Shown here: positions 6,123-58,433 of the stretch, piece after piece
Position numbering within the stretch: position 1 is the stretch's first letter
Layout of the letters: every line of letters starts with the position of its first letter
NCBI RefSeq assembly: GCF_000934725.1
Contig: NZ_JYNS01000010.1
Location: 1 to 64,000 of the forward strand
Source: Methyloterricola oryzae
GTDB taxonomy: Bacteria > Pseudomonadota > Gammaproteobacteria > Methylococcales > Methylococcaceae
Length of the DNA stretch: 64,000 bases
Reading direction: 5' to 3'
The notes under the pieces: generated by a model
What the model saw: only the letters and a program-made list of their open reading frames with translations
Told to the model about the DNA's origin: nothing
The model's database searches: none
Program-made: the position numbers and the translations under genes

Positions 6123-6131
6123 GGCCTGACT

Positions 6132-7770: not shown

Positions 7771-7772
7771 CC

Positions 7773-43127: not shown

Positions 43128-43142
43128 CGTCCGGACGCGGCC

Positions 43143-43460
43143 TCATTCCGTCAGCAGCAGGCTCCCGATATCGAGCAGCGTCACCCGCGAGCCCAAAAGG
43201 TGAACCGATCCGCGCAGGCGGTTGTTGCCGGTATCGCTGTATTCGAAGGCGTAGACGCGGTTCAGCATCAAAGTGCCGCGCTCGTTGCGGCCGAACCGCA
43301 CCCGCTCCAACGCGATGGTTTCATCCAGCAGTTGCAGCCCCTCCGACTGGCAGGCCTTGCGTGCCGCCGCCACGCCCGCTTCCCGCGCGGCGAGGCTGTC
43401 GAACCAGAACCAGACCAGGGCCGCCGCCGTGGCGGCGAGGGTAAAATCAAAAAATGTCAT
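43143..43460 (-). CDS. DUF3301 family protein
   Basis: A 105-residue protein with an N-terminal membrane segment (FTLAATAAALVWFWF) and the DUF3301 core (AREAGVAAARKACQSEGLQLLDETIAL, YAFEYSDTGNNRLRGSVHLLG). A small gammaproteobacterial family of unknown function. Convergent with the ABC permease. Confidence 0.85.
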   Translation of the reverse strand: MTFFDFTLAATAAALVWFWFDSLAAREAGVAAARKACQSEGLQLLDETIALERVRFGRNERGTLMLNRVYAFEYSDTGNNRLRGSVHLLGSRVTLLDIGSLLLTE

Positions 43461-43562
43461 ATTGCTTCGTGTGTTCGGTTCAATCTGGGCCTGGACGAGC
43501 GGTCAAGCGCGCAGCCCCGCAATCTTCGGATGATACACCAGGGTCTCAGGATGCGGGGACGG

Positions 43563-45188
43563 TCAGACAGCGGCAGGGCGTGAAGACGATTGCCGAAGCA
43601 GGTCCGCCGCTTTTTCCGCGATCATGATGACGGGCGCGCTGGTGTTACCGCTGACGATGGTGGGCATGATCGAGGCATCCACGACTCGCAGTCCGTCCAC
43701 GCCATGCACCTTGAGCTCGGCGTCGACCACCGCCGCTTCATCCTGGCCCATCCTGCAGGTGCCCGCCGGATGCCAGGTAGTCGAGGCGCTGCGCCGCACG
43801 AAGGCTTCCAGTTCCGCGTCGCTGCGCTGTCCGGCACCCGGCGCGACCTCCTCGCCGCGGATGTCGTCGAATGCACTGGCGTTCAGTATCTTCAGGTTCC
43901 AACGCACCCCGGCCACCGCACAGCGCAGATCGTCCGCCGTCTGCAGGTAATTCGGGTCTACGATGGGGCGGTCCAGGGGATTTGCCGACGCCAGGCGGAT
44001 CTCACCACGGCTCTGCGGGCGGTTGATGTAGGACGTGAGCGTGATGCCATGACGTAGGGGCGGGCCTGCCTCCGGATAGTCGGGCGACAGCAGGGTCAGG
44101 AAAAAGTGCTGCAGGCCGGGCACCGCCTCACCCGGCCGGCTGGGGAGGAAAGCCCCGGCTTCCAGGCAATTCGAGGCGAATGGCCCCGTACCTTCCTGCT
44201 CATAACCATGACGCAGCGCCGCCTTGGCCTCCTGTGGCAGCGGGGGAAATGTCAGCGGACTGCGGATAGCGCAGCGCACCCGGGTATGCAGATGATCCTG
44301 GAGGTTGCGGCCGACACCGCGCAGGTTCACGCGAACCCGGAGGCCGTGGCGCTCCAGTTGCGCCGCCGGGCCGATCCCGGAGAGCATGAGCAACTGCGGC
44401 GAGCGCAAGGATCCGGCACACAGCAGCACCTCGCAGCCCGCCTCCGCCCGTTCGCTGACACCCAGGCGCACGTATTCCACCCCCCGCGCCCGCGAGCCCC
44501 GGAACAGTACCCGTGTCGCCAACGCATGGGTGAAGACCGTCAGATTGGGCCGCGCCCGAGCGGGCTCCAGATAGGCGTCGGCGGCACTGCAGCGGCGGCC
44601 GGTGGCGATGGTGGCCTGCAACGGACCCACGCCCATCTGTTCAGACCCATTGAAATCAGGATTGTAGGCGATACCCGCTTCCCGGGCGGCGGCGAAATAG
44701 CGCTCGACCAGAGGATTACCGGAAGCATGGCTGCTCACCACCAGGGGCCCTTCCCGGCCGTGATAGGCATCGGCGAGGTCGCGGTTGCATTCCGCCCTGA
44801 GGAAATAGGGCAGCACCGACTCGTAGCCCCAGCCGCGGTTGCCTGCCGCTTCCCAGCCGTCGTAATCGGCCCGGTTGCCGCGGATGTAGATCATGTAGTT
44901 GATGGCGCTGGAGCCGCCCAGTCCGCGTCCCTGGGGCATGAAGATGCGCCGTCCCAGGAGGTGCGGCTGCGGCGCCGTGCGGTCACCCCAATCCCAGGGG
45001 CTGTCCTGCAACTGGGCATAAAGAGCCGGCGTGCGGATCAGGTCCGAGTCCGCCTCGCCACCGGCTTCCAGCAGCAGGACACGGCAGCGCGGGTCTTCCG
45101 TCAGCCGCCCGGCCAGCACGCAGCCGGCGGAACCTGCGCCAACGATGACATAATCGAAGGCGTGATCGGTTTTGGCTTCGACGCTCAT
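43563..45188 (-). CDS. GMC-family FAD oxidoreductase, last gene of the CoM/epoxide operon
   Basis: A 541-residue choline-dehydrogenase-like flavoenzyme: FAD-binding VIVGAGSAGCVLAGRLTED, GRGLGGSSAINYMIYIRGN, internal LLCAGSLRSPQLLMLSGIG, and C-terminal TTWHPAGTCRMG with the catalytic histidine region. It oxidises a primary or secondary alcohol, usually passing electrons to a quinone or oxygen. The start codon overlaps the PLP-enzyme stop (ATGA), so it is translationally tied to the operon. Its substrate could be an alcohol formed from the epoxide pathway; this is inference. Confidence 0.88.
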   Translation of the reverse strand: MSVEAKTDHAFDYVIVGAGSAGCVLAGRLTEDPRCRVLLLEAGGEADSDLIRTPALYAQLQDSPWDWGDRTAPQPHLLGRRIFMPQGRGLGGSSAINYMIYIRGNRADYDGWEAAGNRGWGYESVLPYFLRAECNRDLADAYHGREGPLVVSSHASGNPLVERYFAAAREAGIAYNPDFNGSEQMGVGPLQATIATGRRCSAADAYLEPARARPNLTVFTHALATRVLFRGSRARGVEYVRLGVSERAEAGCEVLLCAGSLRSPQLLMLSGIGPAAQLERHGLRVRVNLRGVGRNLQDHLHTRVRCAIRSPLTFPPLPQEAKAALRHGYEQEGTGPFASNCLEAGAFLPSRPGEAVPGLQHFFLTLLSPDYPEAGPPLRHGITLTSYINRPQSRGEIRLASANPLDRPIVDPNYLQTADDLRCAVAGVRWNLKILNASAFDDIRGEEVAPGAGQRSDAELEAFVRRSASTTWHPAGTCRMGQDEAAVVDAELKVHGVDGLRVVDASIMPTIVSGNTSAPVIMIAEKAADLLRQSSSRPAAV

Positions 45189-46216
45189 AAGGGCAGCAGC
45201 CAGCTTCCATCGCCGGCGAAGAAGGCCGGCTCTCCGCCGGTGTGGAGGAATACGATGCAGTCGCCGTCCAGCATCCCGCGTTTGCGGTGGTGCAGCAGGC
45301 CCGCCATGGCCTTACCGGTGTAGACCGGATCCAGCAGGACGCCCTCGCTGCGCGCTACCCGCTGGATGGCTGCCGCCGCCTCCGGGCTGGGGACACCGTA
45401 GCCGGGACCTATGAAGCCGCCATGCACCAGGGCTTCGTCGGGCGAGAACTGCAAGGACAGGCCGAGCAGGCCAGCGGCCTCGCTAGCCAACCTCGCCACC
45501 TGCAGGCGGGCCGCCTCGACTTCGCGGCTGACGGTAAAGCTCTCCACCCGCCAGCCCGCCCCCAGCAGGCGGCTGCCCAACAACCAGCCGGCGTGAGTGC
45601 CGCCGGAGCCGGTCGCCATGACCACCGCATCCGGCGCGATGCCCAGGGCGCGGCATTGCGCGTCCAGTTCCTTCGCCGCCAGGACATGACCCAAGGCGCC
45701 CAGTGCACAGGCGCCGCCCCGGGGAATGGCATAGGGAATTTCTCCGCGCCTGCGTACATGGGCGCAGGCATGCTCGATGCCGGCATCCACCGAGGCACGG
45801 TCTTCATCGCCGGTAAAGCAGGGCTGCACGCCCAGCAGCCGGGTGAGCCGGTAATTGCCATCGAATTCAGCGGGCGACTCGCCCCAAAAAACCGTCAGGC
45901 AGCGCAGCCCGGCATGGGCCGCCACCGCAGCCGTCGCCCGGACATGGTTGGACTGCGGGCCCGCGCCTGTCACCAGGGTATCGGCGCCTTGCGCCTGCGC
46001 GTCTGCCAGCAGGAACTCCAGGCCCCGCAGCTTATTGCCACCCAGTCCGAAATCGATCAGGTCGTCGCGCTTGCACCACAGTTCCGCGAGGCCGAGTTCC
46101 GCGCCCAGGCGTCGCCAAGGCCTTAAGGGTGTCGGAAATTCCGCCAGGCGGGCGCGCGGTAAGCGATCCAAGGCCGCCAAAGCAGCGTCGGTGTCCGGGG
46201 TCGAATGGCCGGTCAC
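45185..46216 (-). CDS. D-cysteine desulfhydrase/ACC-deaminase-like PLP enzyme, probable CoM biosynthesis
   Basis: A 343-residue fold-type II PLP enzyme: WCKRDDLIDFGLGGNKLRGL with the cofactor lysine, VTGAGPQSNHVRATAAVAA, VVMATGSGGTHAGWLLG (phosphate loop), and VLLDPVYTGKAMAGLL. The GTG start overlaps the lyase stop (GTGA). In Xanthobacter autotrophicus Py2, a homologue of this family (XcbE1) performs the thiol-forming step of bacterial CoM synthesis. Next to a ComA-like enzyme and two fumarase-type lyases, that role is the most likely here. Confidence 0.85.
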   Translation of the reverse strand: MTGHSTPDTDAALAALDRLPRARLAEFPTPLRPWRRLGAELGLAELWCKRDDLIDFGLGGNKLRGLEFLLADAQAQGADTLVTGAGPQSNHVRATAAVAAHAGLRCLTVFWGESPAEFDGNYRLTRLLGVQPCFTGDEDRASVDAGIEHACAHVRRRGEIPYAIPRGGACALGALGHVLAAKELDAQCRALGIAPDAVVMATGSGGTHAGWLLGSRLLGAGWRVESFTVSREVEAARLQVARLASEAAGLLGLSLQFSPDEALVHGGFIGPGYGVPSPEAAAAIQRVARSEGVLLDPVYTGKAMAGLLHHRKRGMLDGDCIVFLHTGGEPAFFAGDGSWLLPL

Positions 46217-47583
46217 TGCGGTGCCTCCACCGTCATGGCCGCCAGCACGCGGTCCACCATCTCCGCGCAACGCCCCGTACTGTCGGCCGGATCGAAAAGC
46301 CGCCGCAGCCGCTCCGCGCCGAGAGGCTCGCGCACCTCCGGCTCGGCAAGCAGCGCCTCCAGCAGGCCCTCGCCGCGCTCCGTCGCCGCCATGGCCACCC
46401 GGTACACCAGGGCATGCGCGCTCTGCTTGCCCAGGTGCGGGGCCAGCGCCAGCATGACCCGTTCCGCATAGACGAAGCCGCGGGTGGCGGCGAGGTTGTG
46501 TAGCATGCGCTCCTCACACACATTCAGGCCCTCGAGCAGGTGCCGCAGCAGATGCAGCGCCTTGCCGGTTGCGAGGCAAGCTGGAGGCAGGATGGCCCAC
46601 TCCCCTTTCCAGGAACGCCCATCGCGCTCGTGATCATGCACCAGGCTCTCCAGCATGAAGGCCGCCTGATGGCGCACGCTGCGCGCCAGGGTGCCCAGGT
46701 GTTCGGAGATTTCCGGATTGCGCTTCTGCGGCATGGTGATGCTGCCCACCGTCCCCGCAACGAAGCCTTCCGACAGCTCGCCGATCTCCGGCCGCTGCAG
46801 GTTGTACACTTCGTGGCCGATGCGGTCGGCGGTGGCGGTCATCAGGGCCAGTAGGTTAAGCCAATCCGCCAGGCGATCGCGGCTGGCGGTCCAGGAGATT
46901 GCGGGCGGCATCAGCCCCAGGCGCTGACAGAACCGCGCCTGCAAGGCGATGGCTTCATCCCCGAAGGACGACAGACTGCCGACACCGCCCGCCAGCTGCG
47001 CCGTGCCCAAGACCGGGATGACCCGCTCCAGGCGGGCCTGATGCCGCAGAATCTCGTCCAGCCAGCCGGCGGCCTTGAACCCAAAGGTAATGGGCAGACC
47101 CGGCTGCCCGTGGGTGCGGCCGCACAGAGGGGTATTCCGGTGAAGGCGGGCCAGGCCGGCGAGGGCTTCCGCGATTGCCCGCAGTTGCGCGCGCAGGATT
47201 TCGGCGGTGCGCAACAGCACGCGGGCCGTGTGCGAGTCGGTGATGTCCTGCACCGTCGCGCCATAGCACAGCCATTCCCCGCTGTCGCCGGGGCAGCGCC
47301 GCTGCAAGGCGCGGATGAGCCCCAGCAGCGAGTGATTGCTGCGCTGAAAATCCTCGCGCACTTCCTGCAGTAAGGCCTCGTCCGGCGCCACGCCCCGGCA
47401 GGCGGCTGACAGCGCCTCGGCGGCCGCCTCGGGAATCAGCCCGAACTCCGCCTCGGTTTCCGCCAGTACCGCCATCACCTCGATCCAGCCGGCGATCTGC
47501 GCGCGGTCGTCGAACAGGGCCCGCAGTTCCGGGATGGACCAGGCGTCCGCGAAAATGCCATGATCGACGATGCCTACGGTCAC
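46213..47583 (-). CDS. Aspartase/fumarase-superfamily lyase 2, probable CoM biosynthesis
   Basis: A 456-residue lyase resembling adenylosuccinate lyase/carboxymuconate cycloisomerase: TVQDITDSHTARVLL, LCGRTHGQPGLPITFGFKA and signature GSITMPQKRNPEISEHL. The GTG start overlaps the previous stop (GTGA). The superfamily adds or removes groups across a C=C bond. In the Py2 pathway two such enzymes (XcbC1, XcbD1) act between phosphosulfolactate and the thiolation step; this is one of the pair. Which step it performs cannot be read from sequence. Confidence 0.83.
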   Translation of the reverse strand: MTVGIVDHGIFADAWSIPELRALFDDRAQIAGWIEVMAVLAETEAEFGLIPEAAAEALSAACRGVAPDEALLQEVREDFQRSNHSLLGLIRALQRRCPGDSGEWLCYGATVQDITDSHTARVLLRTAEILRAQLRAIAEALAGLARLHRNTPLCGRTHGQPGLPITFGFKAAGWLDEILRHQARLERVIPVLGTAQLAGGVGSLSSFGDEAIALQARFCQRLGLMPPAISWTASRDRLADWLNLLALMTATADRIGHEVYNLQRPEIGELSEGFVAGTVGSITMPQKRNPEISEHLGTLARSVRHQAAFMLESLVHDHERDGRSWKGEWAILPPACLATGKALHLLRHLLEGLNVCEERMLHNLAATRGFVYAERVMLALAPHLGKQSAHALVYRVAMAATERGEGLLEALLAEPEVREPLGAERLRRLFDPADSTGRCAEMVDRVLAAMTVEAPQ

Positions 47584-49139
47584 GGCCCCGAATCTCCTGC
47601 CGCGAAGGCCCGCGCCCGTTCCAGCAGACGCGCGCCAGCGCCCAAAAGCTGCTGCCGGCGCGCGCCCTGCCACGCCGCTGCTTCCCTAAGGCGCTGCTCG
47701 CAGTCTGCCAGCATGTCCGCCATGGGTCCGGCGGCGGCACCGCCGGGTTGGGAACGGGCCTCCAGCGCACTTCGCACATTCAAGGCATCCCGGAGGCCGG
47801 CCTCGCTCAACTCGATGCGCCGCTGCAACAGATCTTCGGCGGCCTCGGCGATGGCGCCGGCGGTCAGGCCATCGAAGTTGCCGACCGCCAGGTGTTCGCG
47901 CACCAGCGAGCCCACCAATCGGTGAGCTTCGCGGAAATCGAGTCCGCACTCCCCGACCAATACTTCCGCCAGATCGGTGGCGAGGGCAAAGCCCTGCTCC
48001 AGTCCGCGCGCGGCATGTTCTTCGCGAAACACCAGGCGTTGCAGCACCTCGGCCATGAGCGACGCGGCATCGGCGGCATCGCCCAGGGCCTTCGGCACCG
48101 CGCCATACAGCATCAGCCGGTTGTCCGGCTGGCCGGAGGCGGTGCGCCCGGCGGCGACAGCTCCGGCCAGTTCGCCGATCAGGCCGTTGGCCAGACCGCG
48201 CACATGCGTCAGGGCGAAGGGATTCTTTTTCTGGGGCATGATCTTGCTGGCCCGGGCATGGCTATCATCCAGCTCCACCAAGGCGAATTCCGAAGTCGCG
48301 AAGACCTGCAGGTCCTCGGCCAGCCGGTTGAGGTTGACCATGGCGGTTGCGGCCAGGGACAGGGACTCGATGGGCAGGTCCGCCTCCCACATGGCGTCGC
48401 GGGCGTGGGCCACAAGACCCTCGAAGCCGAGCCAATCCGCCAGTTGCTGCCGGTCCTGGAACAGCCGCGAGCCGTTGCTGCTGCCGCAGCCCGCGGGACA
48501 GAGATTGACGCGGCCATAAAGCGCCCGCAAACGGTCCAGATCGCGCAGCAGCGGATGGACGAAGCCCAGCAGGTAATGGCCGAAGCTGGTGGGCTGGGCA
48601 GACTGCCAGTAGGTGTAATCCGACATCGGCGACCCTTGAAAGTGCCGCGCACGTTCCACCAGCGCGCTGCCTGCCTCGACCAGGGCGCCGCCCAGGTCGA
48701 GCAGCCGCTCCCGCACGCGCATGAGAAAGGCGGTGGTCGTCGCATCCCGCCGCGCCCGGCCGGCGCCCAGCCAGCCTACGGATGGCGTGCGCCTGGCAAG
48801 CCAGGCCTCGCGGTTGGTGTACAAATCGCCCAGGTCCGGGACCGGCGAAAAATCAGCAGGCCCCTCATGCAGATCCAGCAAGGCCGCCAGCAGTTCCCGG
48901 CCCGGCGTCGGCGGGATGAGGCCCGAATCCGCCAGCATCAGGGTATGGGCCAGGTCCGCCTGGCTCATGGCTTCGAACAGGTCCAGCTGCGCCTCCAGTT
49001 CCTTGCGGAAGGCGGCCTGGACCAACCGGGGCGAAGGGCCCTCGCGCAGCCTCGCTCCGATTTCCAACACCTGTCCGTCCGTGTGTCCCATCGAATTTTC
49101 CACTCCTGAACCTTTCGGCACGCGCGGCATCCCGGTCAC
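47580..49139 (-). CDS. Aspartase/fumarase-superfamily lyase 1 (argininosuccinate-lyase-like), probable CoM biosynthesis
   Basis: A 519-residue lyase with the superfamily signature ASKIMPQKKNPFALTHVRG and an argininosuccinate-lyase-like N-terminal half (LADSGLIPPTPGRELLAAL, TATTTAFLMR-like DATTTAFLMRVRERL, GSRLFQDRQQLADWLGF). GTG at 49139 gives the GTGA overlap seen throughout this operon; ATG at 49091 (AGGAG upstream) would remove 16 residues. Probably the phosphate-eliminating or decarboxylating lyase of CoM synthesis, by analogy with XcbC1/XcbD1 of Py2. Confidence 0.83.
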   Translation of the reverse strand: MTGMPRVPKGSGVENSMGHTDGQVLEIGARLREGPSPRLVQAAFRKELEAQLDLFEAMSQADLAHTLMLADSGLIPPTPGRELLAALLDLHEGPADFSPVPDLGDLYTNREAWLARRTPSVGWLGAGRARRDATTTAFLMRVRERLLDLGGALVEAGSALVERARHFQGSPMSDYTYWQSAQPTSFGHYLLGFVHPLLRDLDRLRALYGRVNLCPAGCGSSNGSRLFQDRQQLADWLGFEGLVAHARDAMWEADLPIESLSLAATAMVNLNRLAEDLQVFATSEFALVELDDSHARASKIMPQKKNPFALTHVRGLANGLIGELAGAVAAGRTASGQPDNRLMLYGAVPKALGDAADAASLMAEVLQRLVFREEHAARGLEQGFALATDLAEVLVGECGLDFREAHRLVGSLVREHLAVGNFDGLTAGAIAEAAEDLLQRRIELSEAGLRDALNVRSALEARSQPGGAAAGPMADMLADCEQRLREAAAWQGARRQQLLGAGARLLERARAFAAGDSGP

Positions 49140-50011
49140 GACGATTTCTTGATCAAGGGCCACTCCCCCAGCGGCGGCTCCACCGCCAGGGGATCCCAGG
49201 CGCCGGAGCGGACCAGTTCGCCGGTGACCCAGCGCATGGTGTCGAAGCGCAGCCGGTTGCGCAGGGCCTCCACCGCCAGCACCTGATCGGGTTGGATGTT
49301 ACCCAGGCCGACATTGGTGCCGAAGTGCTGCACCAGATAGGCCTGCTGGTCCTTCAGGGGCGCCTCCCAGATGAGGCGGCCGACCGCCTCGCCCATCCGG
49401 GCGCGGATGATGGCCACCGCCTCGTCGATCACTTGCCCGTGCTGGTCGTAGATGCCCACGGCCTTGCCCGACTCGCGGCTTTCCACCACCACCCATTCCG
49501 CGCCCGCCGCCAGGTCCTCCAACGCCTGCTCGGCCAGTTCGTCGGCGCTGGGCTGCTGGCGCGGGTCCTTCTTGCCCACCTCGGTGATGGGCACCAAGCC
49601 CGCTTCGCGGGCGCAGCGAATCAGATTGCGGCGGCGGAAAGCCGGCAGGGGAATGGTGCCGTCGGAAATCTCCACGCCGGCAAAGCCCAGCTCCCGCGCG
49701 TGCCGCATGTAGACGCGGCAATGATGCTCCACCAGGGCCACTTCCAGCAGGGTACCGCCGGGCAAGCTCAGCACACTGTGCTCCGCCAGCAAGGCCAGCT
49801 TGGCCGCCAGCAGCTTGCGGGTATGAAACACCGAGGTGCCGAAGCCGAATTTCCAGTGATCGATGCAGTGGCCGGCGAGCTCCAGCACGTCCTCCAGTTG
49901 GCGCAGTCCGACGCCTGTGTCGATCACCATGGTAATGCCGCAGGCGCGGGGCTTTTGCACGCGGTCGCCGATGAGCGAGCCGACGATGCTGTCCCAGGCC
50001 AGTTCAGGCAT
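49136..50011 (-). CDS. comA: Phosphosulfolactate synthase (ComA-like)
   Basis: A 291-residue TIM-barrel enzyme with clear ComA motifs: KPRACGITMVIDTGVGL, KFGFGTSVFHTRKLL, LSLPGGTLLEVAL, GFAGVEISDGTIPLP, PITEVGKKDP, VVVESRESGKAVGIYD, LIWEAPLKDQQAYLVQHFG and NVGLGNIQPDQVLAVEALR. It adds sulfite to phosphoenolpyruvate to give (2R)-phospho-3-sulfolactate, the committed first step of CoM synthesis (XcbB1 in Py2). It overlaps the unknown gene upstream by 8 bp and the lyase downstream by 4 bp. Confidence 0.93.
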   Translation of the reverse strand: MPELAWDSIVGSLIGDRVQKPRACGITMVIDTGVGLRQLEDVLELAGHCIDHWKFGFGTSVFHTRKLLAAKLALLAEHSVLSLPGGTLLEVALVEHHCRVYMRHARELGFAGVEISDGTIPLPAFRRRNLIRCAREAGLVPITEVGKKDPRQQPSADELAEQALEDLAAGAEWVVVESRESGKAVGIYDQHGQVIDEAVAIIRARMGEAVGRLIWEAPLKDQQAYLVQHFGTNVGLGNIQPDQVLAVEALRNRLRFDTMRWVTGELVRSGAWDPLAVEPPLGEWPLIKKSS

Positions 50012-50918
50012 GAGCGACGTCCCCCGCCAGCAGCCTGAGCGCCTGTTCCACCATGGCCAGGTCCGCGCCCCAGGGCACGATCACGGTGTGGCCGTCCCGC
50101 TCGATATCGAACTCCAGCAGGCAGCACTTGAGCAGGGTGGGACGATCTGCGCCGACCGCGAGCCGGCGCGGACACATCTCGATACGGGGCGGCTCATCAC
50201 CATAGTAGTGCCGGTGGAACTGAAGGCTGCGCTCGCAGCCGATCAGGGTCCAGGGCTCGCGTTTTGGAGGGCGCTCGTCGAGGAAATGCACGGGAGCGCC
50301 CAGATCGTCCAGCCCGCCCGAGCGGCATGGCACCAGAAACGACTCCGCCGCGACGCCCGCGCTGAGGGCGCGCAGGTCGATGGCTTCCAGTTCCAGGCAG
50401 ATGGGCGGGAGCGGCGCGTAGCTCAGCACATGCTCTGCCATGGCATAGAGCTTGGGCGGCGCGGGCGGAGTGACCTCCACCACCCGCACGATGCACGGAT
50501 CGGGGCGGTGGATGAAGTTGATATGATCGAAAGCGCCCTGCACCACGAGGGTCTGCTCGCGGCCCACGCCCTGATTCCTGGCCAGTTTCGCCAGGGCCGA
50601 GGGGTTTGCCGGATCGGTTTGAGGCGACACGCAGAACACGCAGTCCTCGGGCAAGGCCAGCACCTCCACCGCTTCGAGGCGGGTGAACAAGCCATCGCAC
50701 GGCGCGCGCTGCACCGCCGCCACCGCCAGTTCCCCGGCGGAATTGTGGAGGATGACCGCATCGGTGCGCCGGTACACCTCGCGGCTCAGCAGATGCTGTT
50801 CGACCGCGGCGGCGGTCATGGCCCCGGCGTAGGGCTGGTAGCTGACCCGGCGGTAGGGCAGCGGGACGAAGTTGCCCCGGTTCCTGAGGCACCCGACCTC
50901 CAGCACTTCGCCGCCCAT
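50004..50918 (-). CDS. Unrecognised 304-residue protein in the CoM/epoxide operon
   Basis: A soluble protein (MGGEVLEVGCLRNRGN) with no family I can name. It has many cysteines (for example EDCVFCVSP, DPCIVRVVEV, PPICLELEAI, VPCRSGG, IGCERS, EMCPRR, LKCCLLEF) but no CxxC-type cluster pattern that fixes a cofactor. The C-terminus (EFDIERDGHTVIVPWGADLAMVEQALRLL) looks like a small regulatory or binding domain. It begins 3 bp after the CoA-transferase beta gene and overlaps comA by 8 bp, so it is clearly part of the operon. It may supply a step not covered by the other genes. Confidence 0.8.
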   Translation of the reverse strand: MGGEVLEVGCLRNRGNFVPLPYRRVSYQPYAGAMTAAAVEQHLLSREVYRRTDAVILHNSAGELAVAAVQRAPCDGLFTRLEAVEVLALPEDCVFCVSPQTDPANPSALAKLARNQGVGREQTLVVQGAFDHINFIHRPDPCIVRVVEVTPPAPPKLYAMAEHVLSYAPLPPICLELEAIDLRALSAGVAAESFLVPCRSGGLDDLGAPVHFLDERPPKREPWTLIGCERSLQFHRHYYGDEPPRIEMCPRRLAVGADRPTLLKCCLLEFDIERDGHTVIVPWGADLAMVEQALRLLAGDVAHA

Positions 50919-50921
50919 GGG

Positions 50922-51773
50922 TCAGGCCTCCAGCTCGAAGCGGCGCGCCCGGTCCTCGGGCCGCAGTTCCCTTTCGTGGATGCGGAGCGGGTCCAGGGCA
51001 CGGATGCAGGCCGCCATCTCCGCAGTGGGCAGCGGGATCGACGCCAGATCGTCGCGCGCCACCAGTTCGAATCCGGTGCTTGCGCGCAGCTCGTCCAGGC
51101 CCACATCCGGGTAGAGCGCCGCCAGGCGCGCCTGCCCGTTTTCGTCGAAATCGAACACGCCCAGTTCGGTGATCAGCCAGTCCGGGCCCTGGCCGATGTG
51201 ACCCAACCGGCCGCGCTGCGCCCCGCCGGGTACGCCGTGCCCAAGACTGGTGATGAAATCGCAGCGCTCCACCAGGCGAAAACGGCGCCGGCCGCTCTGA
51301 TCGGGCGGCGCGCGATGGGCCGCCGTCCACAGGGTAATGCGGCGCGCGTCGCAGGAGAGGTTGCCTCCCCCGCCGCCGCCCGGCAGCTTGAGGGACATGC
51401 GCTCGCGGCCCAGGCGCGTGACATTCAGGTTGCCGCGCCGGTCGATCTGCAGGCCCGAGAGGAACATGCGGCCCAGCCGGCCGGCGGCGGCCAGGTCGAA
51501 CAGCTCGTCGATGGACAGATGGCATTCCGCGCCGCGGTTCATCGCCCAATCGTTGCTGGTCGGCGTCAGGAAGGGCGGAGCCGGATTGACGCCATAGGTA
51601 GCCCCCGCCACCAGCACCAGATTGGGTGCGTGGGTGCGTTTGGCCAGGTGCAAGGCCAGTTGCACCAGGGGCGAGCCGAAGCCGTGGAAGGCCAGGATGC
51701 CGTCCTCGATGGTGCGGGCGATCTGGTAGATCAGGGCCTCGCCCAAGGTGCAGTCGCCGGGCCGCTCAGTCAT
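50922..51773 (-). CDS. CoA-transferase family subunit B
   Basis: A 283-residue family I CoA-transferase-type beta subunit (GILAFHGFGSPLVQLALHLAK, LVLVAGATYGVNPAPP, FLSGLQIDRRGNLNVTRLG, LPGGGGGGNLSCDARR, WLITELGVFDFDENGQARLA), of the glutaconate/IpdB-like branch. Start at 51773 overlaps the alpha subunit by 8 bp. In this operon it could activate acetoacetate or another keto acid formed from the epoxide; substrate inferred. Confidence 0.88.
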   Translation of the reverse strand: MTERPGDCTLGEALIYQIARTIEDGILAFHGFGSPLVQLALHLAKRTHAPNLVLVAGATYGVNPAPPFLTPTSNDWAMNRGAECHLSIDELFDLAAAGRLGRMFLSGLQIDRRGNLNVTRLGRERMSLKLPGGGGGGNLSCDARRITLWTAAHRAPPDQSGRRRFRLVERCDFITSLGHGVPGGAQRGRLGHIGQGPDWLITELGVFDFDENGQARLAALYPDVGLDELRASTGFELVARDDLASIPLPTAEMAACIRALDPLRIHERELRPEDRARRFELEA

Positions 51774-52698
51774 ACAGCGCCCTCCAGCTTTCCGGGCTTT
51801 CCTGCCAGGAAGCCAGCCGCTCCAGGCTGGCCGGTCCACCGATGGCGCGCAGGTAGTCGGCTTCAGTGGGGCAGTCGTGCACATAGGTTTGCAAATAGCC
51901 CTCGCGGAAGGCCTCCGCGCCCTGAGCCGCGAGCCGGTAGTACTCGGCGGTGTGCCGCCGGTCGTAGGCATAGAAGGGATAGCAGGCGGTGGGATGGGCG
52001 CCGTGCGGAACCTCCGCCAGGGCCGTCACGTAGAAGTACGGGATGCTCACGCCCATCTCCGCCAGCCGGTCGGTGGGCAGGATCTGCTCCACCGTGGCAA
52101 TTACCCTGCGCGAGGCCTTGGCGAACAGGACGTCGGCCACCGGCGGCCCCTCGATGCGGAGATTTCCGTGGGCATCCCCGTACTGGGCGTGCAGGATGGC
52201 GACATCCGGCCTGAGCGCCGGCACCAGGACCAGTTCCTCTCCGGTGTAAGGGCAGCGCAGGGTCTTGAATTCCGGGTGCAGATCCATGAACCCCGTGCCG
52301 CGCATGGAGCGCATGGGCATGAACGGCAGGCCGGCGATGGCGGCCCGCAGCTGCTGCACCAGGGTGTAGCAGCAGTTGTCCTCGACCGCCACGGCGCCAG
52401 ACTCGCAGGCGCGGCGGTAATTGGGCGCCATGCCGAAGTCCTGCTCGAAGCCGACATAGGATTCGCCGCTCGCAGCCACCAGCCCGGCCCCGCACAAGAG
52501 ATCCACATCGATGCCGTGGGCCGAGCCGATCAGCCTCAGCCCCCCTACCCGCCGCCGCACCAGTTCCCGCAGCACCGCCATGGGCTCGCGCCAGGACAGG
52601 CCGCCGCCGACGGCCACGCAGTCGCCGGCGCTCACATGGGCCGCGAGCCCCGGCAGGTCGGTCAGTTTGTCGGGCTGGGTGTGCAGCGGAACATTCAT
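51766..52698 (-). CDS. CoA-transferase family subunit A
   Basis: A 310-residue alpha subunit (GDCVAVGGGLSWREPMAVLREL, LIGSAHGIDVDLLCGAG, DFGMAPNYRRACESG, ELVLVPALRPDVAILHAQYGD, ANV-type VLFAKASRRVIATVEQI) of the glutaconate/IpdA-like CoA-transferase family. Starts with an ATGA overlap at the SDR stop. Forms a heterodimer or heterotetramer with the next gene product. Confidence 0.88.
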   Translation of the reverse strand: MNVPLHTQPDKLTDLPGLAAHVSAGDCVAVGGGLSWREPMAVLRELVRRRVGGLRLIGSAHGIDVDLLCGAGLVAASGESYVGFEQDFGMAPNYRRACESGAVAVEDNCCYTLVQQLRAAIAGLPFMPMRSMRGTGFMDLHPEFKTLRCPYTGEELVLVPALRPDVAILHAQYGDAHGNLRIEGPPVADVLFAKASRRVIATVEQILPTDRLAEMGVSIPYFYVTALAEVPHGAHPTACYPFYAYDRRHTAEYYRLAAQGAEAFREGYLQTYVHDCPTEADYLRAIGGPASLERLASWQESPESWRALYD

Positions 52699-53462
52699 AA
52701 GGCGGACAGGCCTCCATCGACGGTGAGGGCAATGCCGGACACGAAGGCGGAGGCATCCGAGGCCAGGTAAAGGGCCGCCTGCGCCACCTCCTCGGGCAGC
52801 CCGAAACGGCCCATGGGGTATTTCGCCATCTTGCCGGCGGTGGCCGCCTCGGTGTCGACGCTGCGTATCCAGCGGTCCAGCTCAGTGCCGGCGATGCGCC
52901 CGGGACAGATACAGTTGACCCGGATTCCGCGGGGCGTGTAGTCCACCGCCATCTGCCGGGTCAGGGCGATGATGCCGCCCTTCGAGGCGCAGTAGGCCGC
53001 CAGCCTCGGAAAACCGATCTGCCCCGCCACCGAGGCCATATTGACGATAGCGCCGCCACCTTCCCGCATGGCGGGCAGCACCGCCTGCGAACAGAGGAAA
53101 GTGCCGCTCAGGTTGGTGTCGATGATGCGCCGCCAGGCGTCCAGCTCCGTGTCTTCCACCGCGCCGAAGTCCACGATGCCGGCGTTGTTGACCAGCACGT
53201 GCACGTTGTCTCCGAAATGCTGACGGATGGCCGCGAACGCGCCCTCCACCGCCTTGCCATCGGCCACGTCCGCCTGGAACGCGGCGCTGTCTATCCCGGC
53301 ATCCCGCAGAGCCCGCCGGGCTTCATCCAAGCGCGCGGGGTCGCAGTCCACGATCGCCACGCGGGCGCCTTCCCGGCCAAAGGCCCGGGCTATGGCCAGG
53401 CCGATGCCAGCGCCGCCGCCGGTGATCACGGCATGCTTGCGCGCCAGGCGTTTGCCCATCAC
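52695..53462 (-). CDS. SDR dehydrogenase, probable hydroxyalkyl-CoM dehydrogenase
   Basis: A 255-residue SDR: TGGGAGIGLAIARAFG, VLVNNAGIVDFG, catalytic S144, Y157, K161 (YCASKGG), and C-terminal VSGIALTVDGGLSAL. In the Xanthobacter Py2 epoxide pathway, two SDRs (XecD, XecE) oxidise R- and S-2-hydroxypropyl-CoM to 2-ketopropyl-CoM. Only one such gene is present here. Arginines at 153, 189, 197 and 200 could contact the CoM sulfonate, but the R/S type cannot be assigned. ATGA overlap with the carboxylase gene. Confidence 0.82.
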   Translation of the reverse strand: MMGKRLARKHAVITGGGAGIGLAIARAFGREGARVAIVDCDPARLDEARRALRDAGIDSAAFQADVADGKAVEGAFAAIRQHFGDNVHVLVNNAGIVDFGAVEDTELDAWRRIIDTNLSGTFLCSQAVLPAMREGGGAIVNMASVAGQIGFPRLAAYCASKGGIIALTRQMAVDYTPRGIRVNCICPGRIAGTELDRWIRSVDTEAATAGKMAKYPMGRFGLPEEVAQAALYLASDASAFVSGIALTVDGGLSAL

Positions 53463-55015
53463 ATCCCCCTCAGTACCCGGCTGCCCGCCCGCAGACGGCA
53501 GAGTTGAATGAAATAGGACGGGTTGAGAAACAGCTCGTTCATGTCCCCCAACTCGTCCACGGTCAGTCCCTTGCGTACTAGCGGGGCCAGATACTGGAAA
53601 CCGTCCTTGGCGCCGGCTCCCACGTGGAAGGCGCCGACGATGCGGCGCGTATCGCCGTCGATTACCAGCTTCTGGAACCCCGACAGCTCGGGCCTGAGCA
53701 GGGCGTAGAGCATCATCCGGTCGCCGGCCGGCAGCGATACGGAGTCCCCGTCGGGATTATCGGGCGGCAGCTTGAGGACGATCACGTTGCGGAGGCGGGC
53801 GCGCGCCTGTTCCTCCCCCAGGCCCAGCCAGCAGACCTCATAATGGGTATGCAGGAAATCCGGAAAGTCCTCGACCCGGTAATGGGCCTCGTCCCCCATG
53901 ATGTTGCGAGCCGCGCACACGCCGCCCTTGCGGGCCTTGAACATCTCCATGGGAGCGCCCACCACGTCGCCCACCGCATAGACATCCGCCACCGAGGTGC
54001 GCATGCGGCTGTCCACTTGCACAAAGCCATTCGCGTCGGTGGCAACTCCCAGAGCGGCTAAGGCCTCCGCGGAATTGGGCTGCTGTCCCAGCCCCAGGAA
54101 CAGGAAGTCGGTGCTTACCTCATGGCTGCCTTCTCGGGTCTGGATCGTCACCGCCGCCAGTTTTCCCTCCCCATCGCCCTCCAAAGCGACGACGTGTGCG
54201 CCGCTCCAGAATTCCATGCCCTGCTCCCGCATGCGGGTCATCAAAAAGGCGCGAGTTTCCGCGTCCTGAATTAGCGCCAAGGGCTCCTCGCGGGAGACGA
54301 CGAGGGTGCGGCGGCCCGTCGCGTTGAAGAAACAGGCGTATTCGATGGCGGTCTTGCCGCCGCCCGCCACCACGGCGGTCGGCCCGGGCTCGTAATCCAG
54401 GCGGTCGACCAGACTGGCATAATCGAAAACGCCGGTGAGCGACTCGCCTTCAAGGCCCAGCGCCCTGGCCCGGGAGCCGGTGGCGAGCACCAGGGACCGG
54501 GCGCGATAAATGGATTCCGCGACTTCCACGCTGTGGGCATCGACGATGCGCCCCGGGGCACCGAGCACGAACTCCAAGTCCAGTTGCTCCTGGCTCTGGT
54601 AATTCATGAAGGCATGGGGGCCGGTGCGTCCCTGCCGGAACGCCTCGACCAGTTCCAGGATGGAAACCTGCTTGCCGCGCAGATCCTGGAACCACAAACG
54701 GCCCGAAAAACTGCGCTCCAGCATGAGCTGCGCCGCCGCGTCCGAGAACAGATGATGGGGTACGCAGGCATGGTGGGGACAGGAGCCGCCCAGGAAGGGC
54801 CAGCGATCGATGATGAGGGGGCGGCCGCCCATGGCGCGGAGATACGCGGCGCCGAAGCGGCCACCGGCCCCGCCTCCCAGGAAGATAGCATCGAAAGGAC
54901 GACGGTCGCCGCGGTCGATATTCACCAGCGGCTCGCCGCCGCCCGCGGCCAGACGATCCTCGATCTCGCGGCGCCAGCGCGTCGTGGTCCATTGGGCCCC
55001 GCTTACGTCAGTCAT
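53459..55015 (-). CDS. xecC: 2-ketopropyl-CoM carboxylase/oxidoreductase-like flavoenzyme
   Basis: A 518-residue disulfide oxidoreductase of the 2-KPCC type. FAD site AIFLGGGAGGRFGAAYLR, redox pair C79-C84 (GGSCPHHACVPHHLFSD), HAFMNYQSQEQLDLE, VFDYASLVDRLDYEPGP, KTAIEYACFFNATGRRTL, AVGDVVGAPMEMFKARKGG and FPDFLHTHYEVCWLGLGEE follow the Py2 enzyme closely. 2-KPCC cleaves 2-ketopropyl-CoM and carboxylates the product to acetoacetate. The C-terminal active-site motif is FLNPSYFIQL (F496, Y501), where Py2 has Phe-501 and His-506; Tyr replaces His by a single-base change. Activity as a carboxylase is therefore uncertain. Confidence 0.88.
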   Translation of the reverse strand: MTDVSGAQWTTTRWRREIEDRLAAGGGEPLVNIDRGDRRPFDAIFLGGGAGGRFGAAYLRAMGGRPLIIDRWPFLGGSCPHHACVPHHLFSDAAAQLMLERSFSGRLWFQDLRGKQVSILELVEAFRQGRTGPHAFMNYQSQEQLDLEFVLGAPGRIVDAHSVEVAESIYRARSLVLATGSRARALGLEGESLTGVFDYASLVDRLDYEPGPTAVVAGGGKTAIEYACFFNATGRRTLVVSREEPLALIQDAETRAFLMTRMREQGMEFWSGAHVVALEGDGEGKLAAVTIQTREGSHEVSTDFLFLGLGQQPNSAEALAALGVATDANGFVQVDSRMRTSVADVYAVGDVVGAPMEMFKARKGGVCAARNIMGDEAHYRVEDFPDFLHTHYEVCWLGLGEEQARARLRNVIVLKLPPDNPDGDSVSLPAGDRMMLYALLRPELSGFQKLVIDGDTRRIVGAFHVGAGAKDGFQYLAPLVRKGLTVDELGDMNELFLNPSYFIQLCRLRAGSRVLRGM

Positions 55016-55027
55016 GTCCGGGCCGGC

Positions 55028-55258
55028 TCAGCCGGGCGGCTCGCGGCCTGCAGTCGGAGCGGCGCCGCCGCAGCAGGGGCAGCCGGAGCCGTGGGCCGAC
55101 TCCAATGGGTGGGGAAGCGGCGGGCTATCCGCATCGGGCCGGGCGTGGTCGCTGCCGCACCGGGAACAGACCCAGCACTCCGGCTCGCGGGTTCCGGCAA
55201 ACACCATGCCGCTGAAGCGATGCCCGCAGTCGGGGCAGACAATCTGATAGATGGGCAT
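55028..55258 (-). CDS. Small zinc-ribbon (FmdB-like) protein
   Basis: A 76-residue protein starting MPIYQIVCPDCGHRF, with cysteine pairs CPDC, CSRC and CPCC that fit one or two zinc ribbons of the FmdB regulatory family. It lies between the epoxyalkane:CoM transferase and the carboxylase genes, 12 bp before the latter. A metal-delivery or regulatory role is possible but unproven. The tail is rich in Pro and Gly. Confidence 0.7.
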   Translation of the reverse strand: MPIYQIVCPDCGHRFSGMVFAGTREPECWVCSRCGSDHARPDADSPPLPHPLESAHGSGCPCCGGAAPTAGREPPG

Positions 55259-55354
55259 GGCCTCGGTCCAAATCACGCCGACGACTGCGCGTCGGCGTGT
55301 CCGCCAGGTGGTTATTGTTTTAGTGCATCCGGAGCCGCTTGAACCTTGCCCGGA

Positions 55355-56482
55355 TCAGGCCGCCGCGGCCCGCTTAGCCGCCAGTTCCCGCCGCACCAGC
55401 TCGGTTCCTTGCACCAGGGCATGCAGTTTGTCGATGGCGATATAGCGTTGCAACAAAATCAGCCCGCAGTCCGTGGTCACCCCGAGCCGCTCCGCCGGGA
55501 TCACCTGCAGCAGCCTGCGGATGCGATCCGCGACCTGCTCGGCGGTTTCGGTGATGGTGCTCTTGACGTCGATCACCCCCGCCCAGAAGCTGATGTTGTC
55601 CGGCAAGGCATTCGATTTGAGGACGTCCAGCCCGCTCATGTCGTCACTGCGGCGTCCGCAGCTCTCCAGGTTGAGCACGTCGATGTGTGCCCGGTAGGCG
55701 GCTGGAACCACCGTGGCGGTGGCTTCCGGCTGCTTTCCTCGCCGCTTGGTCAGATCGTAGACTTCGCCGGCGCTGGCGGTTTCGTCGGGCAGGTAGGCGG
55801 GCGTCCCGCCCCAGTTGCCCCAGCACACGTGCACGATGATCTTGGCGTTCTTCACGCCCTCCACCGCCCGGTTGAAGGCCTCGATGGCCCAATCCTCGAA
55901 GCCGTAGGGCCAGGTGAACTCGTCCAGTTGGATGAAGTCGACACCCAGGGCGTCCACTTCCAGCAGATCCTCGTTGATGGCGGCCGCGATGGCCATGGCC
56001 CGGTCCCGGGAGGATTTGTAATGCAGGTCGTTGCTGGCCTGGGCCAGCACCTGGATGCCGGTGTACTGGATCTTGACCGGCTTGCGCGTGGCGCGTTTCA
56101 GCGCCTTCGCCTGCTCGACCATGATGGCGCCGCGCCGTTTGATTTCCTGATCCACCGTGCCGGCGTGCAAACGGCTGTAGATAGGGAAGCCGAGGTGCCC
56201 GCCCTTGAGATTGTAGCCGAGGCGGCGGAAGTAGTAATACAGGGCCTGGTCGGCATAGTTGTCGCCATGCACGCGCCCATCAGCGATGATGTCCAGGCCG
56301 GCATTTTCCTGGTCCCGGGCGATCGCGCCGATCACATCCTCCAGCGCCTCGCGCCACATGGAATCCGGCGGCTCCTGATCGCCTCTGAAGTGGCGGGCAA
56401 ATTCCGCGTCCCACCAGCGCGGGTTGGGATAGTTGCCGACCATGCTGGTCGGGATGAGTACCTCGCTGCCACGAATCTTCAT
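55355..56482 (-). CDS. xecA: Epoxyalkane:coenzyme M transferase
   Basis: A 375-residue MetE-like zinc enzyme, first gene of the operon, with AAAAAGGAGG upstream of the ATG at 56482. N-terminal LIPTSMVGNYPNPRWWDAEF, DIIADGRVHGDNYADQALYYYF, FIQLDEFTWPYG. Zinc ligands appear to be H218 and C220 (VHVCWGNWGG) and C339 (VTTDCGLILLQRY), as in EaCoMT. It opens an epoxide ring with the CoM thiolate, giving a hydroxyalkyl-CoM thioether. The CoM synthesis genes in the same operon support this over a methionine synthase role. Confidence 0.9.
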   Translation of the reverse strand: MKIRGSEVLIPTSMVGNYPNPRWWDAEFARHFRGDQEPPDSMWREALEDVIGAIARDQENAGLDIIADGRVHGDNYADQALYYYFRRLGYNLKGGHLGFPIYSRLHAGTVDQEIKRRGAIMVEQAKALKRATRKPVKIQYTGIQVLAQASNDLHYKSSRDRAMAIAAAINEDLLEVDALGVDFIQLDEFTWPYGFEDWAIEAFNRAVEGVKNAKIIVHVCWGNWGGTPAYLPDETASAGEVYDLTKRRGKQPEATATVVPAAYRAHIDVLNLESCGRRSDDMSGLDVLKSNALPDNISFWAGVIDVKSTITETAEQVADRIRRLLQVIPAERLGVTTDCGLILLQRYIAIDKLHALVQGTELVRRELAAKRAAAA

Positions 56483-56766
56483 TGCTCCACCCTCCTTTTT
56501 CAACGGCCGATTAATTCTTGCCTTCCCTGAACCCGCCTCCCCACCGCATTGGGCAAACACGCGCTCGCCGGCGGGCACGCACTCCCCGCTCCGGGCCTTG
56601 CTCACCCGCTAGTCAAATGCCTTTGGTTGTGCGACATTGCGCCGCATCCGGCGTATTTTGTCAACAGGCTATTTCTGTCACTTGCCTTGACCTCAAAAAT
56701 CCGTTCTGATTCGCGCGCACCCAGCGCAACGACGCTTGCTAAATCCCCATTTCGACGAGGCCTAGC

Positions 56767-58179
56767 ATGAACAACCCAATAGGCGAACACGCCGCCGAAA
56801 TCGGCGCATTGGTAGCGCGTGCCCGCAAGGCGCAAGCGGGCATCGAGCACTACTCCCAGGAGCAGGTGGACGCGCTCACCACGGCCATCGCCTGGTCCGT
56901 CGTGCGGCAGGACCGCGCCGAGACTCTGGCGCGACTGGCTGTGGACGAGGGGGGATTCGGGAACTACCCGGACAAGGTGCTCAAGATCCGCAACCGCATC
57001 ATGGGCACCTTGGCGGACATGGCGGACGTCAGGACCGTGGGCGTGGTCGAAGAAAGCCCCGACAAGGGCTTGATCAAGATCGCCAAGCCGGTGGGCGTGG
57101 TGGCCGCCCTGATCCCCACCACCGGCCCCGATGCCACTCCGCCATTGAAAGCACTTCTGGCCCTGAAGGGACGCAACGCCATCATCGTCGCCGCCCATCC
57201 GCGCACCCAGAAGACATCGGCCCTGGTGGTGGATTTCATGCGAGCCGCATGCGAACAGGTGGGCGCTCCGGCGGACCTGATCCAGTTGATCGAAAAACCC
57301 TCCCTGGCCAAGACCCAGGAACTGATGCGGCAGGTGGACCTGATCGTCGCCACCGGCGGCGAAGCCATGGTGAAGGCGGCCTACAGTTCGGGCACACCGG
57401 CCTATGGGGTGGGCGTAGGGAATTCCGTGCATGTGGTCGACGAGACGGCGGACCTGCAGGATGCGGCCAGATGCATCGCCGTGGCAAAAACCTTCGACTA
57501 CGCCACCAGTTGCCTCGCCGACAACGCGGTGGTAGCGGCCGCGGCCGTGTACGATGCGCTCAAGAACCTGCTCATGGAACAGGGCGGCCATGTCTGCAAT
57601 CCCGAGGAAAAACGCAGGCTGCAGACCGTGATGTGGCCAAAGCCCGGCGTGCCCATACCGGCCTTGGAAGTGATCGCCCGGTCGGCCGGCGAAATCGCGG
57701 CGCTGGCCGGAATACCTGTTAGCGAGGCCTGCCGGTTCCTCGTGGTGGAAGAATCCGGGACGGGCCCCGAGCACCCGTTTTCAGGCGAAAAGCTCTCGGT
57801 GGTGCTGGCCCTGTACCGCTACGAAGGTGGCATCGGGCAAGCGGTGGAGCAAGTCAACCGCATCACCGACTACCAGGGGCACGGCCATACCTGCGGCATC
57901 CACACCTGCAACGACGACCATGTGATGGCCTTGGCCATGGGCACGCGCACCGCGCGGGTGATGGTGAACCAGAACCTCAACGAGGGCGCGGGCAGCCCCC
58001 GCAATAGCCTGCCCTACACCCTGAGCCTGAGCTGCGGCACCTGGGGCGGCAACATCACCACGGAAAATGTCAACGCGCGCCACTTCGTCAACCTCACCTG
58101 GGTGTCCCGGCCGGTAAAACCGCGCGTGATAAACGAGGAAGCGTTATTTCGCGAGCACTGGCAGAAACATGGGCAATAG
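56767..58179 (+). CDS. Acylating aldehyde dehydrogenase, sulfoacetaldehyde-dehydrogenase-like (SauS type)
   Basis: A 470-residue CoA-acylating-type aldehyde dehydrogenase with catalytic C249 (FDYATSCLADNAVV), GVVAALIPTTGPDATPPLKAL, HPRTQKTSALVVDFMRAA, LIVATGGEAMVKAAYSSGTP and TCGIHTCND. Its sequence pattern fits the SauS/SafD branch that converts sulfoacetaldehyde to sulfoacetyl-CoA, but alternatives such as other short aldehydes cannot be excluded. Divergent from xecA with a 284-bp shared upstream region, so co-regulation is plausible, and a sulfonated C2 substrate would fit CoM turnover. Confidence 0.8.
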   Translation: MNNPIGEHAAEIGALVARARKAQAGIEHYSQEQVDALTTAIAWSVVRQDRAETLARLAVDEGGFGNYPDKVLKIRNRIMGTLADMADVRTVGVVEESPDKGLIKIAKPVGVVAALIPTTGPDATPPLKALLALKGRNAIIVAAHPRTQKTSALVVDFMRAACEQVGAPADLIQLIEKPSLAKTQELMRQVDLIVATGGEAMVKAAYSSGTPAYGVGVGNSVHVVDETADLQDAARCIAVAKTFDYATSCLADNAVVAAAAVYDALKNLLMEQGGHVCNPEEKRRLQTVMWPKPGVPIPALEVIARSAGEIAALAGIPVSEACRFLVVEESGTGPEHPFSGEKLSVVLALYRYEGGIGQAVEQVNRITDYQGHGHTCGIHTCNDDHVMALAMGTRTARVMVNQNLNEGAGSPRNSLPYTLSLSCGTWGGNITTENVNARHFVNLTWVSRPVKPRVINEEALFREHWQKHGQ

Positions 58180-58198
58180 CCTTCGGTGGCTGCCGGAG

Positions 58199-58234
58199 CT
58201 AAGGGGCTTTCAATACGATTAACCCGCCCCTTAG
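58199..58234 (+). terminator. Inverted repeat after the aldehyde dehydrogenase gene
   Basis: CTAAGGGGC (58199-58207) pairs with GCCCCTTAG (58226-58234) around an 18-base loop, 20 bp after the stop. A second GC-rich inverted repeat, GCCGGGC near 58237 with GCCCGGC near 58262, follows. There is no T-run; it may act as a terminator or RNA-stabilising structure. Confidence 0.5.
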
Positions 58235-58433
58235 TGGCCGGGCTAATGCGGGGCACGGATGGCCCGGCGCGGCCAGAAGCCGCGTCAGCCAAGGTCGAGC
58301 GCGCACCGACCTTGGCGTCGGCCCGAAATAACAGGAGGGCATTTTGGGGCCTGATCAATATTGGCGGAACGGGTGATATGATGCCCTGAAAAAACCTTAG
58401 CCTGAAATCCCCTCGCATAAGAGCCGACACTGC

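Follow-up and report, generated by a model that had tools for sequence, protein, structure and literature searches.

Why would a methanotroph carry genes both for making coenzyme M (CoM) and for using it on epoxides, and which epoxide would these genes serve? Both sets lie together on the minus strand of a 64,000-nucleotide stretch of Methyloterricola oryzae DNA (contig NZ_JYNS01000010.1, positions 1 to 64,000), here called the window. Judged from its genes, this is a CoM-dependent epoxide-clearing operon, most likely aimed at the epoxyethane that particulate methane monooxygenase (pMMO) would form from ethylene, a reading to which we give a probability of about 0.6. Its core, the synthesis of CoM and the removal of epoxide by an epoxyalkane:CoM transferase (EaCoMT), is highly probable, and a specialisation of the operon for C2 compounds is held to be slightly better than an even guess. 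The operon as such belongs to an already known kind, since the available text of Toppings et al. 2024 (PMC11507031) reports clusters like it from 14 of 150 methanotroph genomes and reads them as detoxifying pMMO-made epoxyethane. What appears to be new is a tyrosine variant, at position 506 in Xanthobacter Py2 numbering, of 2-ketopropyl-CoM oxidoreductase/carboxylase (2-KPCC).

The first-pass annotation had described 12 overlapping or closely spaced minus-strand genes from EaCoMT to a GMC oxidoreductase. The open frames and the DNA itself agree with it: the run leads from 56482 to 43563, and the count of 12 within 43563-56482 holds only when a small zinc ribbon (55028-55258) is included. A DUF7714 (XcbA) gene, two CoA-transferase subunits and a divergent SauS-like gene are genes beyond those it had listed. 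The features are the following, two bit scores separated by a slash being score and cut-off.

55355 to 56482, minus strand: EaCoMT (XecA/EtnE), 78% identical to Xaut_5047 and 46% to EtnE of strain NBB4.
55028 to 55258, minus strand: FmdB-type zinc-ribbon small protein of 76 residues; TIGR02605 25.6 bits, under the cut-off of 31.3.
53459 to 55015, minus strand: 2-KPCC (XecC) homologue, 681.8 bits to 1mo9 and 57% identical to the Py2 enzyme; its Tyr501 corresponds to Py2 His506 and its Leu416 to Met419.
52695 to 53462, minus strand: S-type short-chain dehydrogenase/reductase (SDR) resembling hydroxyalkyl-CoM dehydrogenases; 227 bits to 4gh5 versus 150 to 2cfc, S clade in the SDR tree.
51766 to 52698, minus strand: CoA-transferase subunit A; PF01144 82.2 bits.
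50922 to 51773, minus strand: CoA-transferase subunit B, placed by synteny; PF01144 19.8 bits, under the cut-off of 23; start inferred.
50004 to 50918, minus strand: XcbA (DUF7714), CoM synthesis; NF052538 490.6/150.
49136 to 50011, minus strand: XcbB/ComA phosphosulfolactate synthase; TIGR03849 293.9/280, PF02679 270.7.
47580 to 49091, minus strand: XcbC, argininosuccinate-lyase-like; NF052535 807.9/575; start inferred.
46213 to 47583, minus strand: XcbD, adenylosuccinate-lyase-like; NF052536 702.8/600; start inferred.
45185 to 46216, minus strand: XcbE, pyridoxal-phosphate (PLP) enzyme, D-cysteine-desulfhydrase-like; NF052537 534.3/450; GTG start at the GTGA overlap.
43563 to 45188, minus strand: GMC oxidoreductase, choline-dehydrogenase-like; PF00732/PF05199, betA-type models under cut-off.
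56767 to 58179, plus strand: SauS-like CoA-acylating aldehyde dehydrogenase, divergent from the operon; NF047625 530.9 bits, under the cut-off of 600.

The 3′ end of XcbD shares GTGA with XcbE, and that of XcbE shares ATGA with the GMC gene; 284 bases separate the starts of the operon and of the divergent gene.

The identities of these genes stand at the level of sequence. All five CoM-synthesis proteins, XcbA to XcbE, exceed their NCBIfam cut-offs in profile comparison, which bears out for XcbB to XcbE the ComA motifs, the two lyases and the PLP enzyme recognised earlier. Borne out as well is the MetE-like EaCoMT with an HxC...C pattern: H218-x-C220 and C339, positions that we take to be zinc ligands, are invariant in a three-sequence alignment. 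The EaCoMT gene starts with an ATG at 56482 after a purine-rich stretch resembling a ribosome site, and elsewhere in the genome EaCoMT is matched only by a single MetE-like frame, in two stretches (26 and 33%). The flavoenzyme had been called 2-KPCC-type, and its three PDB matches at E values up to 1e-30, the best being that listed above, are all named 2-oxopropyl-CoM reductase. The predicted combination of CoM synthesis with CoM-dependent epoxide metabolism is thus supported. Closely similar gene sets occur in many methanotrophs, as gene maps of the best 80 among 101 confirmed EaCoMT relatives (found with an EaCoMT alignment, one genome per species) reveal. In many of these loci CoA-transferase subunit B comes after subunit A, and an FmdB-type zinc ribbon also adjoins EaCoMT in many.

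The source of the epoxide had been proposed to be co-oxidation of alkenes. This is supported by the M. oryzae genome (4.90 Mb, 73 contigs), which carries three genes of the pMMO/ammonia monooxygenase family; on this ground the host is, by its genes, a methanotroph within the gammaproteobacterial order Methylococcales, and it shares its family with Methylolobus aquaticus (G041/L011) and Ca. Methylumidiphilus (G044/L016). The genome gave no match to PF02332, a weak negative as the control genomes gave none either.

The distinctive member of the operon is the flavoenzyme, which is filed here as a 2-KPCC homologue with a putative carboxylase role. The 57 homologues compared, a set from which identical duplicates and three rows missing the C-terminus (L026, L035, L048) had been left out, all share R56, C82, H84, C87, M140, R365 and F501 (Py2 numbering). 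We take R56 and R365 to be the arginines binding the CoM sulfonate, C82 and C87 to be the redox pair, and His506 to form a catalytic pair with Phe501. The window enzyme has Tyr where Py2 has His506, so that the histidine expected of a 2-KPCC is missing; in the whole set position 506 is Tyr in 22 proteins and His in 35. Over 521 Py2-numbered columns, the Tyr and the His sets have no letter in common at just two, 506 and 419 (two Py2 insert columns excepted). As residue 506 served to divide the sets, the informative column is 419, with Met in all 35 His rows and, among the 22 Tyr rows, 21 Leu and one Ile. Within the window's order the gene was found in 17 of 311 genomes, with Tyr in all 17. In the family to which a Methylocystis genome belongs, taken to be Beijerinckiaceae, 8 of 397 genomes carry it (four Tyr, four His); a sample of the order containing a Rhodoferax genome, taken to be Burkholderiales, has it in 2 of 399 (one Tyr, one His), and a sample of the order containing an Amycolatopsis genome in 3 of 397, all His. 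No mention of Tyr at 506 was found in the searchable literature on 2-KPCC and methanotroph etnE, in which coverage of 2-KPCC enzymology is thin and supplements are outside the search; the words "tyrosine", "histidine" and "ketopropyl" are absent from the main text of PMC11507031, and "tyrosine" from that of PMC6440738. One further locus (L128, G159:C22:327000-346900) holds a Tyr506 homologue (75%) and an S-type SDR, with no EaCoMT or xcb gene in its 19.9 kb.

The second trait that sets this operon apart concerns the dehydrogenases. Its sole SDR is S-type, matching 4gh5/4itu, which we take to be S-2-hydroxypropyl-CoM dehydrogenase (S-HPCDH); at the presumably functional basic residues R211/K214 of that enzyme the window protein has Lys/Lys versus Arg/Lys in Py2. 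The M. oryzae genome contains no ortholog of R-2-hydroxypropyl-CoM dehydrogenase (R-HPCDH): at E up to 1e-40 nothing matches but the operon's own S-type SDR (39%), and the pair of R- and S-dehydrogenases of a propylene-type system is therefore incomplete. The first-pass annotation had assigned an epoxide pathway of XecA, XecC and XecD/E. In this, XecA, the XecC homologue and an S-type SDR stood, and XecD, with no ortholog in operon or genome, did not; since His506 is missing too, neither "propene" nor "carboxylation" can be assumed.

The two traits go together. Counting as R-type any SDR whose best match is Xaut_5049 at 45% identity or more, an R-type SDR accompanies 31 of the 35 His rows and none of the 22 Tyr rows at locus level, and an S-type SDR accompanies all 22 Tyr rows. 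A tree of 63 SDR rows from chosen loci divides into two clades, R and S; Py2 R-HPCDH is among the 25 rows of the former and the window gene among the 38 of the latter. Whole genomes give the same result: in a search of 34 chosen genomes with Py2 R-HPCDH, covering 19 of the 22 Tyr rows and 15 of the 35 His rows, each of the 15 His genomes yielded an ortholog (49-67% identity), and the 19 Tyr genomes, the window's included, yielded none and nothing above 42% identity. The missing R-HPCDH ortholog is, like the Tyr/Leu pair, shown at the level of sequence.

Tyr506 arose independently four times. In a maximum-likelihood tree of the 57 rows built with column 506 removed, four changes at 506 are forced, all by starred branches; the number of changes over 200 bootstrap trees has a 5-95% range of 4 to 4, and a single Tyr clade is rejected (approximately unbiased test, p-AU 1e-50), with some rows being long-branched. 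The largest of the four Tyr groups holds 16 Methylococcales rows, the window's among them; a second comprises four rows from the Methylocystis family, and the remaining two are single rows, Methylohalobius crimeensis and a genome of the Rhodoferax order (G866). This bears on the idea that drift or composition gave rise to Tyr506 and Leu419 without consequence for substrate or product, and that their tie to R-HPCDH reflects common ancestry of clusters moved between methanotrophs, lateral movement being thought likely in the available text of PMC11507031. The events are only four, yet in widely separated clades 506 became the identical letter every time, accompanied by the change in column 419, and none of the 35 His proteins shows either. 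Moreover, L014 and M. crimeensis, with flavoenzymes of 86% identity, still differ both in residue 506 and in the presence of R-HPCDH. Drift is the least probable of the explanations considered here.

What would the enzymes do? The two epoxide enantiomers formed from propylene lead to R- and S-2-hydroxypropyl-CoM, which are handled by separate dehydrogenases, as described in the part of PMC6440738 available. Ethylene gives a single achiral hydroxyethyl-CoM, and for this reason a cluster without R-HPCDH fits ethylene. In M. crimeensis on ethylene, etnE mRNA and 11 of 13 cluster proteins rise according to the available text of PMC11507031 (EtnE and nine others in its abstract), including an opposite-strand "pyruvate/2-oxoglutarate dehydrogenase". 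From strand and place, we infer that the latter is the 2-KPCC homologue. The M. crimeensis genome (G296) has Tyr506 and an S-type SDR only; the induction of its cluster by ethylene, together with the absent R-HPCDH ortholog, suggests that the target of Tyr clusters is achiral epoxyethane and not the two enantiomers of epoxypropane. In the proposed sequence, pMMO would oxidise ethylene to epoxyethane, XcbA to XcbE would produce CoM, and EaCoMT would open the epoxide with CoM to 2-hydroxyethyl-CoM. The S-type SDR, perhaps also the GMC enzyme, would oxidise this to 2-oxoethyl-CoM, of which the Tyr506/Leu419 variant would split the C-S bond with NADPH, releasing CoM. The C2 product may then reach acetyl-CoA through the SauS-like acylating aldehyde dehydrogenase, the CoA-transferase pair or both. 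We infer from the genes that the substrate is a C2 compound, that the steps follow in this order and that the Tyr enzyme is tuned to the smaller aldehyde 2-oxoethyl-CoM.

Several observations weigh against this proposal. Among 22 tabulated loci the CoA-transferase pair is retained by 21, the exception, within the stretch compared, being L055, and this conservation suggests that an acid is still formed. It is also an argument for ordinary Py2-type carboxylation, in which 2-oxopropyl-CoM would give acetoacetate, or 2-oxoethyl-CoM malonate semialdehyde, the acid would be activated by the CoA-transferase and Tyr506 would be of little effect. A gene order near that of pXAUT01 points the same way, as does the vinyl chloride route, which runs through a carboxylase, malonate semialdehyde and a CoA-transferase in the available text of PMC8727900. 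Such carboxylation is nevertheless unlikely, given that His506 is retained in 35 proteins and was lost four times along with R-HPCDH; by their entry letters, 7mgo and 7mgn are crystal structures of Py2 variants, altered at 501 and at both 501 and 506, so that others have deemed these sites worth probing. At locus level, 4 of the 35 His loci (L039, L044, L068, L136) have no SDR of either type at 45% identity or more within the stretch compared, the SDRs of L044 standing at 33 and 37%. The ethene/vinyl chloride strains Nocardioides JS614 and Mycolicibacterium NBB4 have His506 and an R-type SDR, which means that C2 use does not require Tyr. The four independent contrasts all agree, yet a sign test gives p = 0.125, the floor for n=4, and four are therefore too few for significance, a point that favours drift as well. 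Finally, Tyr506 was dropped as a methanotroph marker, because two pmoA-bearing Methylocystis-family genomes have His and the Rhodoferax-order Tyr genome (G866) has no pMMO-family match. Genes of the pMMO family were found in 18 of 22 Tyr genomes, the others being G866 and G043, G085 and G111 (an estimated 72, 93 and 76% complete), and in 7 of 27 His genomes tested, with strong pmoA matches in G537 and G570.

The SauS-like neighbour raises a different chemistry for the last step, in which the Tyr506 enzyme would cleave 2-oxoethyl-CoM and protonate the enolate to acetaldehyde, which the SauS-like enzyme would convert to acetyl-CoA. The substitution does hit a residue of the catalytic pair, and an acylating aldehyde dehydrogenase adjoins the operon and is nearby in 15 of 16 mapped loci titled as Methylococcales members (the remaining one, L059, is on a 5.2-kb contig). 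Phe501, however, is unaltered, the CoA-transferase pair would have no task, and no SauS relative lies in the stretch compared for Methylocystis L025 and L027 or M. crimeensis L123, even if a sulfoacetaldehyde dehydrogenase is listed for M. crimeensis in the available text of PMC11507031. As a full account of the operon, this non-carboxylating route is as doubtful as Py2-type carboxylation.

The preferred reading, epoxyethane clearance, leads to a wider and tentative proposal, rated somewhat below even: proteins with Tyr506 and Leu/Ile419 may form a second, convergent 2-KPCC-type class belonging to clusters without R-HPCDH, namely a C2-specific 2-oxoethyl-CoM C-S lyase, possibly non-carboxylating, that clears ethylene oxide in methanotrophs and at least one other bacterium. 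If so, sites 506 and 419 would provide a sequence rule helping to separate C2 from C3 epoxide pathways in genomes, and the signature could aid the sorting of ethylene and propylene clusters in surveys. Ethylene oxide made by accident is a threat to wetland-soil methanotrophs, and the chemistry past 2-hydroxyethyl-CoM is largely unproven. A two-residue signature that tracks R-HPCDH absence in four lineages, with natural replacement of the catalytic-pair histidine, also bears on CO2 fixation by 2-KPCC.

As regards the other members, the GMC oxidoreductase scores 507.1 bits against TIGR01810 (BetA; cut-off 732.1) and is accordingly not assigned as choline dehydrogenase BetA. It is possibly a second hydroxyalkyl-CoM dehydrogenase: L056, L065 and L067 have it with no SDR or 2-KPCC homologue in the stretch compared, for which reason it may oxidise hydroxyalkyl-CoM. 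It recurs in the methanotroph CoM clusters L025, L027, L041, L043, L056, L065, L067, L126 and L127. The SauS-like protein, short of its model's cut-off, keeps that label only. Replacement of the 2-KPCC homologue by a FADox-like enzyme (NBB4; CoA-disulfide-reductase-like) was considered and found weak, as relatives (32-40%) occur after XcbE both with a 2-KPCC homologue (L129, L131, L139) and without one (e.g. L012, L056, L065, L067). In the M. oryzae genome FADox matches reach 27-34%, the sole one in the operon being the 2-KPCC homologue itself; G866 combines the Tyr enzyme and an S-type SDR with relatives of both SauS and FADox. The genome taken as M. crimeensis (G296) has a single 599-residue frame joining XcbA to XcbB/ComA (L123:3215-5011; 63.9% and 48.3% identity to the window proteins), a fusion which hints that XcbA works together with XcbB; in the available text of PMC11507031, sulfoacetaldehyde dehydrogenase is treated as a functional analogue of XcbA in M. 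crimeensis.

A scan of 42900-58700 returned no sigma-70-like promoter (1.6 expected) and 7 terminator-like sites versus 8.1 expected. The GC content of the operon exceeds that of the window's left part, and recent lateral transfer, judged from composition, found no support because GC at third codon positions resembles that of adjoining genes. Next to the SauS-like gene lies a CSS-motif EAL phosphodiesterase (58434-60077). Farther away, at 5841-8258, there is a bufferin-type copper peptide (RiPP) cluster, with the MNIO maturase BufB over its cut-off (395.5/310), a small precursor at 32 bits to NF050166 (cut-off 60) and HvfC-like and HvfX-like partners under their cut-offs.

How does the operon compare with known systems? 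The joining of both gene sets in one operon had been thought notable, a view that is not upheld: methanotroph clusters are published (PMC11507031), and pXAUT01 of Xanthobacter Py2 has a single run. That run (Xaut_5047-5055) comprises EaCoMT, 2-KPCC, R-HPCDH, S-HPCDH and XcbA, B, C, D and E, its second SDR being presumably S-HPCDH. EaCoMT, 2-KPCC, SDR and XcbA to XcbE follow in the same order and direction in the window. Py2, however, has both dehydrogenases and His506, whereas the window has a CoA-transferase pair and the GMC gene within the run, no R-HPCDH ortholog and Tyr506. The Py2 2-KPCC (1mo9) shares with the window enzyme 57% identity, the redox cysteines, the sulfonate-site arginines and Phe501, and differs in His506 (Tyr in the window) and Met419 (Leu). 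Methylolobus aquaticus FWC3 (L011) has all thirteen gene types at 57-86% identity, but with SauS and GMC upstream of EaCoMT in the same direction. M. crimeensis, too, is a methanotroph without alkene monooxygenase whose cluster holds EaCoMT, one SDR, the CoA-transferase pair, Xcb genes and a Tyr506 2-KPCC homologue; it differs in the opposite strand of that homologue (flavoenzymes 58% identical), in the XcbA-XcbB fusion and in a MEDS regulator reported in the available text of PMC11507031, no relative of the reference MEDS regulator being found in window 38001-64000. Between the window and G296 the EaCoMT proteins are 79% identical, so that the M. oryzae operon, with an EtnE above 65% and CoM genes in a methanotroph, takes its place among these clusters.

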